From Rhodanobacter sp. (GTDB taxonomy: Bacteria > Pseudomonadota > Gammaproteobacteria > Xanthomonadales > Rhodanobacteraceae), in NCBI GenBank assembly GCA_004298045.1, contig SCRM01000021.1:124001-188000 (forward strand): a stretch of DNA of 64,000 nucleotides, in the 5' to 3' direction. Positions 14,610 through 64,000 of this stretch are shown piece by piece. The translations under genes and the position numbers were made by a program. A model generated the notes under the pieces. That model was not told the origin of the DNA. It ran no database searches and saw only the letters and a program-made list of their open reading frames with translations. Every line of letters starts with the position of its first letter. Position 1 is the stretch's first letter.

Positions 14610-17528
<2,919 letters not shown>

Positions 17529-61191: not shown

Positions 61192-62082
61192 TCATTCGGC
61201 CGCGAGCTGGTGCGCCAGCCATTGCGCCAACACGTTGACCCGCGCGTCGCCGGGCCGGCGGGTAGCCAGCACCCAGCGCGCCGTCGTTTCACGAAACTCC
61301 CAGGGTGCGATGAGGCGTCGTTTGGCGATGTCATCGGCCACCAGGGCTCGCGGGGCGATCGCCACGCCAAGGCCGGCGGCAGCGGCTTCGAGCAGAAAGT
61401 AGAGATGCGGCAGTGGTTGGGTGGGGTGCAGCGAGGTTGGCGGCAAACCCATCGCCTTGGCCCAGTTGGGCCAGGCTTGCGGGCGGGAGGCGGTCTGCAG
61501 CAAGGGCTCGTCCGCCAGTGCGGAGGGGGGGGCGTCGCGCAGACGCGGGGCGCTGGGGTAACCCGGGCTCAGCACCGGGCCGATGCGCTCGGCCGCGAGC
61601 TCGTGAACCTGCCACCCGCTGGGCCATGGTGGCGCGGCGATCACCAGGCTCGCGTGGACATCAGTGGCGGAGGCCGGGAAGGGCTCATCCTGGGCGGCGA
61701 GGTGCACCGTGAGTTGCGGCAATTCGTGGCGCAGGCGTTCCAGCCGCGGAATGACCCAGCGCGCGAGCACGCTGCCGGAGCAGCCAAGCACGAACGCCGG
61801 TGCGGCCTGCTCTTCGCACAGCTGGTGCCAAGCCTCACGTAACTGGGTGAACGCGCCATGGCATTGTTCCTGCAGTTGCTGGCCCGCCTTGGTGAGGGCT
61901 ACGCCGCGCCCTTGGCGCTCAAACAAGGCGCGCCCGAGGGATTCCTCCAGTGTGCGAATCTGGCGACTGACGGCACCATGGGTGACAAACAGCTCCCGGG
62001 CAGCGAGGCTCATGCTGCCCAAGCGGGCAGCAGCTTCGAACGCGCGCAAGGCGTTCAGCGAGGGCAGGTCACGATTCGACAT
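61192..62082 (-). CDS. trpI: LysR-family regulator, TrpI-like
   Basis: A 296-residue LysR regulator. It begins DLPSLNALRAFEAAARLGS, and the helix-turn-helix region reads ELFVTHGAVSRQIRTLEESL. Both, and the later QTASRPQAWPNWA and HLYFLLEAAAAGLGVAIAP segments, closely resemble TrpI of Pseudomonas, which activates trpBA in response to indoleglycerol phosphate. It diverges from trpB across 112 bases, the same arrangement. A T-N11-A box lies five bases from its start. Assignment is by recognition and context; a different LysR function is unlikely but not excluded. Confidence 0.88.
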   Translation of the reverse strand: MSNRDLPSLNALRAFEAAARLGSMSLAARELFVTHGAVSRQIRTLEESLGRALFERQGRGVALTKAGQQLQEQCHGAFTQLREAWHQLCEEQAAPAFVLGCSGSVLARWVIPRLERLRHELPQLTVHLAAQDEPFPASATDVHASLVIAAPPWPSGWQVHELAAERIGPVLSPGYPSAPRLRDAPPSALADEPLLQTASRPQAWPNWAKAMGLPPTSLHPTQPLPHLYFLLEAAAAGLGVAIAPRALVADDIAKRRLIAPWEFRETTARWVLATRRPGDARVNVLAQWLAHQLAAE

Positions 62083-62194: not shown

Positions 62195-63406
62195 ATGGCC
62201 GAGGTTCTGGATTTCCACGCCTTCCCCGATGTGCAGGGCCGGTTTGGCCGCTTTGGTGGCAGCTACGTGGCCGAGACATTGATGGCGCCGCTGGCGGCGT
62301 TGACCGAAGCCTATCTGCGTTTGCGCAAGGACCCCGCGTTCATCGCCGAGCTGGACCGCGACCTGGTGCACTACGTGGGCCGCCCCAGCCCGATCTACTT
62401 TGCCGAGCGGCTCACCAGGCACGTTGGCGGCGCGCGCATCGTGCTCAAGCGCGAGGACCTGAACCACACCGGCGCGCACAAGATCAACAACACCGTGGGC
62501 CAGGCGCTGGTGGCGCGCTACATGGGCAAGACCCGCATCATTGCCGAGACCGGCGCCGGCCAGCATGGCGTCGCCAGCGCGACCGTGGCGGCGCGGCTGG
62601 GGCTCAAGTGCGTGGTGTACATGGGCGCCACCGACATCGAGCGGCAGAAGATCAACGTCTACCGCATGAAGATGCTCGGCGCCGAGGTGGTGCCGGTCAC
62701 TTCCGGCTCGCAGACGCTGAAGGATGCCCTGAACGAGGCGATGCGCGACTGGGTCACCAACGTCGCCGACACCTACTACATCATCGGCACCGTTGCCGGC
62801 CCGCATCCGTATCCGATGATGGTGCGCGATTTCAATGCCATCGTCGGGCGCGAGGCGCGTGCGCAAATGCTGGCCGAGTACGGCCGTCTGCCGGACGTGT
62901 TGACGGCGTGCGTCGGTGGCGGTTCCAACGCCATGGGCCTGTTTTACGAGTTCCTGAACGACCGCGACGTGCGTATCGTTGGCGCCGAAGCCGGCGGTGA
63001 CGGCACTGCACCAGGCCACCACGCCGCCTCGCTGTCGCTCGGTCGTCCCGGCGTGCTGCACGGCAATCGCACCTATGTGCTGTGCGACGACAACGGCCAG
63101 ATCACCGAGACGCATTCGGTCTCCGCCGGCCTCGACTACCCCGGCGTCGGCCCCGAGCACGCGTTCCTGAAAGACGCCGGCCGCGCCGAGTACGTGGGCG
63201 TCACCGACGAGGAAGCGCTTGCCGCCTTTCACCTGCTGGCGCACACCGAAGGCATCCTGCCCGCGCTGGAATCCAGCCACGCGGTGGCGCAGGCGATCAA
63301 GCTCGCCCGCGAATACCCGAAGGACGGCATCGTGCTGTGCAACCTGTCGGGGCGCGGCGACAAGGATGTGCACACGATTGCCGCGCGCGAGGGGGTGAGG
63401 ATATGA
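62195..63406 (+). CDS. trpB: Tryptophan synthase beta chain
   Basis: PLP enzyme that condenses indole with serine, 403 residues, partner of TrpA. The PLP Lys is in [10 protein letters not shown] (residue about 96). GSNAMG is the phosphate loop, and ETGAGQHG and GVGPEHAF are conserved. The ATG at 62195 has a GGAG ribosome site and gives the usual start. The end overlaps (ATGA) a short repeat-derived ORF that leads into trpA. It diverges from the TrpI-like gene. Confidence 0.98.
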
Positions 63407-63495
63407 GCGTCGGATATGGGATCCGGGACTCAGCGGAGGCAGGCACGAACCCCGATGGGTACCGGTCATTTTTCTTGCGAGCAAGTGCGCCATGA
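63403..63495 (+). CDS. Repeat-derived 30-codon mini-ORF bridging trpB and trpA
   Basis: A 30-residue ORF (starting [12 protein letters not shown], ending LRASAP) whose ATG overlaps the trpB stop and whose TGA overlaps the trpA ATG, both as ATGA. A purine-rich GAGGGGGTGAGG ribosome site precedes its start, whereas none precedes trpA. It consists almost wholly of a dispersed intergenic repeat. It probably serves translational coupling rather than encoding a functional peptide; this is inference. Confidence 0.45.
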
Positions 63496-63529
63496 CGAAT
63501 CCCGAATCCCGAATCCCGAATCCCAATCG
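63407..63529. repeat. Stop-adjacent imperfect palindrome, copy 6 (inside trpB-trpA junction)
   Basis: The left arm follows the trpB stop directly (CGGATATGGGATCCGGG). The right arm (63497-63529) has four GAATCCC units in tandem, the reverse complement of GGGATTC. The right arm lies inside the 5' end of trpA. The loop contains a small hairpin, CTTGC-GA-GCAAG. Confidence 0.7.
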
Positions 63530-64000
63530 CATCGACACCCGCTTCGCCCACCTCAAGGCCAACCATCGCGCCGGGCTCATTCCCTTCATTACGGCCGGCG
63601 ATCCGGCACCCGCGCACACCGTCGCGCTGATGCATGCGTTGGTTGCGGCCGGTGCGGATGCGATCGAGTTGGGGGTGCCGTTCTCCGATCCGATGGCCGA
63701 CGGCCCGGTAATCCAGCATGCGAGCGAGCGTGCCATTGCCAACGGCGTCGGCCTGGCCGACGTGCTCGGCTGGGTACACGCGTTTCGCGAGCGCGACAGC
63801 GACACTCCGGTGGTGCTCATGGGTTATTTGAATCCGGTCGAGATTCACGGCTACGAGCGCTTTGCGCAGGAGGCTGCCGCTGCGGGCGTGGACGGCGTAT
63901 TGCTGGTCGATTGCCCACTGGAGGAATCCGCCGTGCTCGCGCCACTGCGCGCGGCAGGGCTGCACCAGATTCTGCTGGCCGCGCCGACCACCGCGCCAGA
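63492..64000 (+). CDS. trpA: Tryptophan synthase alpha chain (3' end cut by window), with repeat-encoded N-terminus
   Basis: Splits indoleglycerol phosphate to indole, partner of TrpB. About 169 of the usual 265-270 residues are in the window. Catalytic Glu is in [16 protein letters not shown] and Asp in [25 protein letters not shown] and [11 protein letters not shown] are conserved. Relatives begin close to RID(A/S)RF; here an extra [12 protein letters not shown] precedes it, encoded by the tandem GAATCCC units of a dispersed repeat. The start has no ribosome site and overlaps the stop of a bridging mini-ORF, so translation probably depends on coupling. Confidence 0.95.

Follow-up and report, generated by a model that had tools for sequence, protein, structure and literature searches.

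The window, the whole 64,000-nt stretch of Rhodanobacter DNA analyzed here, ends with trpB followed by trpA (Table 1). PF00290 is the Pfam family TrpA, and the trpB product is a PALP-family protein. The TGA stop codon of trpB (63404–63406), which follows the C-terminal residues GVRI of TrpB, lies within an ATGA tetranucleotide (63403–63406). The ATG of this tetranucleotide opens a mini-ORF that terminates at a TGA (63493–63495) within a second ATGA (63492–63495), from which trpA starts. A sequence-only reading of the window had described the 30-codon frame and both ATGA junctions, and its frames and coordinates were confirmed. Between the upstream stop codon and RID, the trpA frame contains no ATG, GTG, or TTG codon other than the ATG at 63492, and residues 2–12 of TrpA are the translation of AC, four GAATCCC units, and AAT. 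That these units encode an extra TrpA N-terminus had also been recognized, and it holds for all four of them. Upstream of trpB, a minus-strand ORF at 61192–62082 that we take to be LysR-type-like lies divergent to trpB, between a presumed trpF-like ORF and trpB, a placement that we regard as reminiscent of TrpI-type control.

Table 1. Features of the trpB-trpA junction in the window and bridged inserts at other trpB-trpA loci
Feature	Location	Strand	Remarks
trpB (tryptophan synthase beta)	62195..63406	+	ORF; PF00291, E 4e-41; 15-residue C-terminus kept in relatives
Shine-Dalgarno-like purine stretch within trpB	63383..63402	+	anti-SD duplex -15.2 kcal/mol
Bridging mini-ORF, 30 codons	63403..63495	+	ATGA overlaps at both ends
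Left (G-rich) heptamer array, decayed	63411..63431	+	CGGATAT GGGATCC GGGACTC
Core, 60 nt, separating both arrays	63432..63491	+	no other copies among the own-genome matches listed
trpA (tryptophan synthase alpha)	63492..64000, continues past window edge	+	277 aa in contig; PF00290, E 4e-81 (L001:1603-2433)
Right (C-rich) heptamer array, GAATCCC x4	63497..63524	+	translated in TrpA N-terminus; dispersed in genome
Repeat-derived TrpA N-terminus	63492..63527	+	12 residues ahead of RID (conserved RIDTRF)
Bridged insert, GGGACTC heptamers	L231
Bridged inserts, CGTC-type inverted repeats	L208, L222, L244, L260, L314
Bridged inserts, other	L287 (+11 nt, wider range only), L292, L295, L296, L305, L308

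The repeat at the junction is of the GGGNATC type, which comprises at least two tandem GGGANTN-type heptamers; here, these are the four GAATCCC units of the right array and the decayed units of the left array. The left array matches the reverse complement of the trpA extension at 16 of 21 positions in the best 21-nt match. With respect to a possible G-quadruplex, four G3 tracts are present on the antisense strand of the junction, and not on the sense strand. REP elements are short palindromes that bear a GTAG-type signature and are associated with a RAYT transposase. The junction had been labeled REP-like, but its anatomy is that of tandem heptamers, and heptamer (GGGNATC-type) repeat is the better term. 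According to the accessible text on Xanthomonas and Nostoc, GGGNATC heptamers occur in tandem, as convergent pairs located just past a stop codon and just before a start codon (PMC4692102).

Elsewhere in the window, clear pairs of arrays are located near 2750–2887 and 15023–15117, and fragmentary heptamer sites near 26.8, 30.9, and 42.6 kb. The claim that the mini-ORF consists almost entirely of a repeat found at five other sites is not correct: other heptamer sites exist, but only the terminal heptamers are common to them, and the left array at the junction is decayed. The same was observed when the genome was searched with the 151-nt junction, where 40 of 109 first-look candidates were scored. 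The 48 hits among the matches listed were the junction itself and 47 confined to the right array with its edges (query positions 85–151), with no second copy of the 60-nt core. When the core of another heptamer junction (genome G164, described below) was searched across 233 genomes, with at most three candidates scored per genome, it was recovered from the trp loci of G164 and G116, and the only further matches were three of 21–30 nt. This search excludes close copies only, because it missed the diverged homologous core of G004. A dispersed ORF-bearing element was thus disfavored, as the limited candidates scored included no close core copy outside trp.

By eye, most of seven other array regions of the same genome are convergent pairs past a stop and before a start codon. 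ORF calling near the arrays was too noisy in this GC-rich genome for a genome-wide count of bridges. At one of these regions (L340, G000:C12, ~23.9 kb), the G-rich array apparently forms the C-terminus of the upstream frame (ending in AEAGIGNTGLGIGEKSKPAP before the stop codon), and the start of the next gene is possibly encoded by an array, both judged by eye. At another (L362/L344, G000:C17, ~104.7–105.2 kb), a gene for a 23S rRNA-intervening-sequence-type protein (PF05635, E 2e-29) is located between accB and accC, flanked by a G-rich array past the accB stop and by a C-rich one ahead of accC, so that the arrays look like the borders of a cargo.

Next, the trpB-trpA junctions of the family were compared. 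TrpA matches were lacking in 9 of the 233 genomes, and G020 and G230, where trpA is at the start of a contig, were left out. The remaining 222 junction loci were tried and 213 were parsed; in four of the nine unparsed loci, trpA is preceded by sequence other than trpB. The spacing was −4 (ATGA) in 134 junctions, −1 in 22, and >30 nt in 51. Direct ATGA overlap is the family norm. In such plain junctions, only two TrpA residues (MN or MS) precede RID, and the trpA ribosome site is inside trpB (mean anti-SD pairing of −7.9 kcal/mol in the 134 junctions). The named relatives are Rhodanobacter and Luteibacter, and sequence similarity places the window near the former. Within the genus, trpA is present in 15/15 genomes. 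With loci obtained twice counted once and insert classes assigned by eye, their junctions comprise eight plain ATGA overlaps, three heptamer junctions (including that of the window), three with another inverted array, degenerate in one case, and a single unrelated spacer.

Further arrays were noted by eye at this spot in the family. A second inverted-array class, GAGTGAG ... CTCACTTC, occurs among L010, L012, L113, L116, L173, L192, L204-L206, L214, and L225; GTCAAAG (L210) and GGGAATC (L149) arrays were also seen, and the spot resembles a hotspot for heptamer-like arrays. At L183 (G113), trpB and trpA are separated by a 645-nt insert that, judged by eye, carries an extra open frame with a P-loop-like GPPAVGKMT motif.

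The trpB-trpA pair is a textbook case of coupled genes. In the accessible account of two-reporter work, a spacing of ~20 nt nearly abolishes termination-reinitiation, spacings of −8 to +10 nt are predictive of it, and trpBA is cited as requiring the overlap (PMC10666635). Because ~20 nt is nearly sufficient to abolish coupling, an insert of 80–130 nt past the trpB stop should break it. In the window, the spacing is −4 at both ends of the mini-ORF, within the predictive range. Pairing with the anti-SD was −15.2 kcal/mol before the mini-ORF ATG compared to −3.0 before trpA, where the background mean is −3.26. This bears out the earlier statement that the mini-ORF has a strong ribosome site and trpA none. 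We infer that the purine stretch within trpB is the ancestral ribosome site of trpA, which today precedes the mini-ORF.

We consider it likely that translation is relayed across the heptamer insert by termination-reinitiation via the mini-ORF. The ancestor would have had an ATGA overlap of trpB and trpA, with the trpA ribosome site within trpB. A GGGNATC-type inverted-array element would then have ended up directly past the trpB stop, the order of events being our reconstruction. As heptamers usually lie just past a stop codon, the position here would be inside the trpA start codon, and since the overlap shares bases, the insert would also have deprived trpA of its ATG. The old SD and ATG would have stayed at the end of trpB, and the body of trpA would have lost its own start. 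In the window, the old start would now open the 30-codon ORF across the left array and the core, which stops on the new ATG; in the relatives, the bridging ORF would stop 6–8 nt ahead of the new trpA ATG, just before the right array. Termination-reinitiation at the new ATG would yield TrpA, and the right array would supply most of its 12 residues ahead of RID. The role of the mini-ORF would be to deliver ribosomes, and its peptide would itself be irrelevant.

Taken alone, the bridge in the window is not significant, because a bridging ORF persisted in 60% of dinucleotide shuffles at the real spacer length; the pattern across the family is. Heptamer junctions were found in six species of four genera: G000 (the window), G007, and G004 in one genus, and G116, G109, and G164 in three others. 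All six have an ORF of 30–42 codons that begins at an ATG on the trpB stop and ends −4 to +8 nt from the trpA ATG, which is located just 5′ of the right array. In the five junctions besides that of the window, the mini-ORF stop is 6–8 nt upstream of trpA, and in 5/6 the new start is preceded by CGAG-TAA/TAG and a further 6–8 nt. All six also have an in-frame, array-encoded TrpA N-terminus of the NPxSRIPNP sort, comprising 12 residues in the window and 14 in the other five. The bridging ORF was retained in only 1–5% of shuffles for each of these five, compared to 60% for the window. The per-junction values sum to an expectation of ~0.76 bridged junctions of six, against 6/6 observed. Anti-SD pairing at the mini-ORF starts had a mean of −9.6 (range −8.3 to −15.2), whereas that at the trpA starts (mean −2.6, range −2.5 to −3.0) was not above background.

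The mini-ORFs of G004, G116, and G164, each from a different genus, form a gap-free alignment of 129 nt with 26–39 differences distributed over all codon positions. Their dN/dS values are 0.60, 0.67, and 1.43, compared to 0.13–0.24 for the adjacent 540 nt of trpA. For these three sequences, this is suggestive of retention of the frame and not of the peptide.

The paired arrays could also act through RNA structure. If they hide the trpA start, translation of the mini-ORF through the left array might expose it by unfolding the RNA, with no ribosome handed over. The predicted left-right hairpins are strong in 5/6 heptamer junctions (z −3.7 to −7.8), with the trpA ATG near the end of the loop, and the array arms of G007 and G116 match over 28/28 nt. 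However, the fold of the window's junction is not more stable than its shuffles (z −0.42; +0.83 over a longer span), and unfolding alone would not need the mini-ORF to stop −4 to +8 nt from trpA, as it does in 6/6. As a replacement for hand-over, we consider unfolding rather unlikely; both can act jointly. With the trpA ATG near the loop of the predicted stem, a ribosome on the mini-ORF would open this stem too. Where the arrays are intact, mini-ORF translation in the relay would thus also melt the hairpin beside the trpA start.

To extend the comparison beyond heptamers, a frame test was applied to 50 long junctions with spacers of 30–400 nt, that is, the 51 described above without the junction with the 645-nt insert. 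A bridge was defined as an ORF ending −8 to +10 nt from the trpA start; a range of −8 to +12 had been fixed before the published one was known. A start codon (ATG, GTG, or TTG) overlaps the trpB stop in 30 of the 50 junctions. Its frame bridges to trpA in 17 of these 30, compared to 3 and 6 of 30 for the other two frames (Fisher p 1e-4). In the 20 junctions without such a start codon, nine of which are in one insert class (by eye) and thus provide fewer independent cases, the equivalent frame bridges in 0/20 and the other frames in 4 and 5. With the −8 to +12 range, 18/30 were bridged, against a shuffle mean of 7.6 and a maximum of 13 in 500 runs. Without the six heptamer cases, 12/24 remained bridged compared to 6.9 by shuffle, the observed count being reached by 1/500 shuffles (frame contrast p 0.012). 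When one junction was sampled per genus (13 genera), a mean of 5.8 were bridged, compared to 1.4 and 2.4 in the other frames. By start codon, bridges were found for ATG in 8/14, GTG in 8/11, and TTG in 1/5. In an earlier subset (n=29), 16/29 junctions were bridged with chains of mini-ORFs included, against 6.3 by shuffle, and 10/23 against 5.0 without the heptamer cases; direct bridges without the heptamer cases were not significant in this subset (5/23 vs 3.0; 56/400 shuffles).

The bridged junctions span eight genera, and their inserts have no evident kinship by eye (Table 1). TrpA N-terminal extensions are also present at L208 and L244. The cases are not all independent, as five of the six heptamer cores are somewhat alike. 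At L192, L214, and L173, chains of mini-ORFs or closing mini-ORFs (e.g., MNTRCSLLFTRFSHS before the stop codon) have stops overlapping the trpA ATG; the chains are possible multi-step relays. The accB-accC pair was tried as a control and abandoned, since only 7 of 30 loci were parsed, none with a spacer of 30–400 nt.

Bridging is not universal. Among the long junctions, a direct bridge is missing from 13 of the 30 whose trpB stop overlaps a start codon and from all 20 that lack this codon, and trpA is retained throughout. The SDs of 32 unbridged trpA starts are poor (mean −0.7), and in 4/12 bridged junctions outside the heptamer class, trpA is preceded by a fair SD (−6.3 to −9.5). As trpA manages in unbridged junctions with poor SDs, a bridge would be favored, not required. 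The mini-ORF might then be incidental, with trpA initiating by itself at an SD-less ATG, helped for example by the U-rich stretch 63469–63476 and S1, and with loose coupling tolerated. The 32 unbridged junctions and the 0.60 shuffle probability of the window's own bridge agree with such self-initiation. It does not account for the excess of bridges in the start-codon frame (17/30) over the other two frames (3 and 6 of 30) and over the junctions without this codon (0/20), for a frame retained without constraint on residues, or for the strong hairpin predicted beside the trpA start in 5/6 heptamer junctions, and we judge it unlikely. The earlier proposal that coupling was kept by re-initiation across the insert hence gains support from the comparison (6/6; 17/30 vs 0/20), but only as a favored and not an obligatory state. 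Comparison of relatives' junctions, which had been suggested as a check, gave the same picture: the heptamer cases are bridged in 6/6, yet other inserts leave trpA in place with no direct bridge.

A third explanation is a MIRU-like mobile unit that carried a ready-made ORF into a DTGA site. ATGA, GTGA, or TTGA is present at the trpB stop in 30/50 long junctions, and MIRUs offer a precedent in the accessible review text (PMC12548453). With no close copies of the core away from trp among the candidates scored, and with bridging ORFs in unlike inserts, we consider this explanation very improbable.

Clear homology links the cores of G004, G116, and G164 (local scores of 44, 48.5, and 57 compared to shuffle maxima of 17.5–19.5), and those of G007 and G109 scored above shuffles against some of these three. 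The core of the window scored only 8–11 against the five relatives' cores, with shuffle maxima of 12.5–16.5; as this similarity is not above shuffles, the window's own core may be of independent origin. On a tree of the trpBA coding sequences (135 junctions, quick method), six changes are needed to place the heptamer junctions, all forced by well-supported branches. For a single vertical origin of the six, these forced tree changes are set against the homologous cores; transfer, recombination, or many losses may each account for the pattern. At L017, L106, and L146, homologous spacer cores occur in three genera, although the coding tree places each among plain-overlap species; possibly, the junction was transferred alone. 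In an order-level search (398 genomes), the matches listed that begin at query residue 1 were G116, G004, G007, and G000, all of the home family. Together, the sequences suggest that such bridges have arisen more than once in this bacterial family.

We lean, by a narrow margin of confidence, toward a broader reading, in which selection on TrpB:TrpA coupling works as a filter through which repeats landing on the stop-start overlap have time and again become bridging mini-genes, in eight genera and from unlike inserts (GGGATTC and GGGACTC heptamers, CGTC-type repeats, and others), some with a repeat-encoded N-terminus. If so, insertions at gene overlaps would generally serve as a source of small ORFs and novel N-termini of proteins. 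The junctions would amount to a natural insertion experiment, run several times in one family, in which the frame is kept and the peptide drifts. With bridges of this kind, sequences can be used to test whether small intergenic ORFs may exist solely as ribosome carriers, and the heptamer junctions offer a route by which a noncoding repeat becomes the N-terminus of a conserved enzyme. Caution is also warranted in annotating trpA starts and ORFs of 15–70 codons in such junctions.

A literature search, largely of sources outside subscription journals, found no account of this trpB-trpA arrangement, and the accessible part of PMC11535334 has nothing on the TrpA N-terminus. The repeat class itself matches the GGGNATC/GGGAATC heptamer G-quadruplex repeats of Xanthomonas (Rehm et al. 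2015, PMC4692102), for which the accessible text reports that no role in gene regulation was found and describes neither bridging ORFs nor trp. In Beggiatoaceae, TAACTGA heptamers likewise form arrays near start codons, some over ORF ends, and a translational role was suggested (PMC4679880). They are a different heptamer with stops in three frames in one orientation, and a bridging ORF is not described in the text available. Coupling of the same gene pair by stop-start overlap and termination-reinitiation is known from E. coli (Aksoy 1984; Das and Yanofsky 1989, as cited in PMC10666635 and PMC12548453), where, unlike in the window, these citing accounts have no insert and no intermediate ORF. 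A short ORF that promotes the next gene is also found in Salmonella, where mgtQ lies between mgtC and mgtB; as far as its accessible description goes, it acts via ribosome-destabilizing acidic residues, with no indication of repeat origin (PMC8092293). In biotechnology, short ORFs are similarly used for ribosome delivery, their translation aiding the next gene, as outlined in the same review that covers MIRUs (PMC12548453).

By analogy, the nearest precedent in logic is the mycobacterial MIRU (Supply et al. 1997, via PMC12548453). In the summary of this 2025 review, the MIRU is a repeat that inserts at start codons, and its ORF is coupled to the gene at −4, an arrangement that likely limits damage to expression. 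Both the DTGA insertion site and an ORF overlapping its two neighbors have their counterpart in the window, with −4 at both ends. The MIRU is dispersed as an ORF-bearing unit, whereas close copies of the G164 core were, among the candidates scored, located only at trp, bar the three matches of 21–30 nt. In the different bacterium studied here, only the arrays are known to be dispersed, the core is seemingly locus-specific, inserts of differing sequence give the same bridge, and the TrpA N-terminus comes from the repeat. Translation across a repeat, which had been thought unusual, is therefore less so, since mycobacterial MIRUs are described as behaving in much this way, but the repeat-encoded enzyme N-terminus is new, as are the unrelated repeat and the formation of bridges in unlike inserts.
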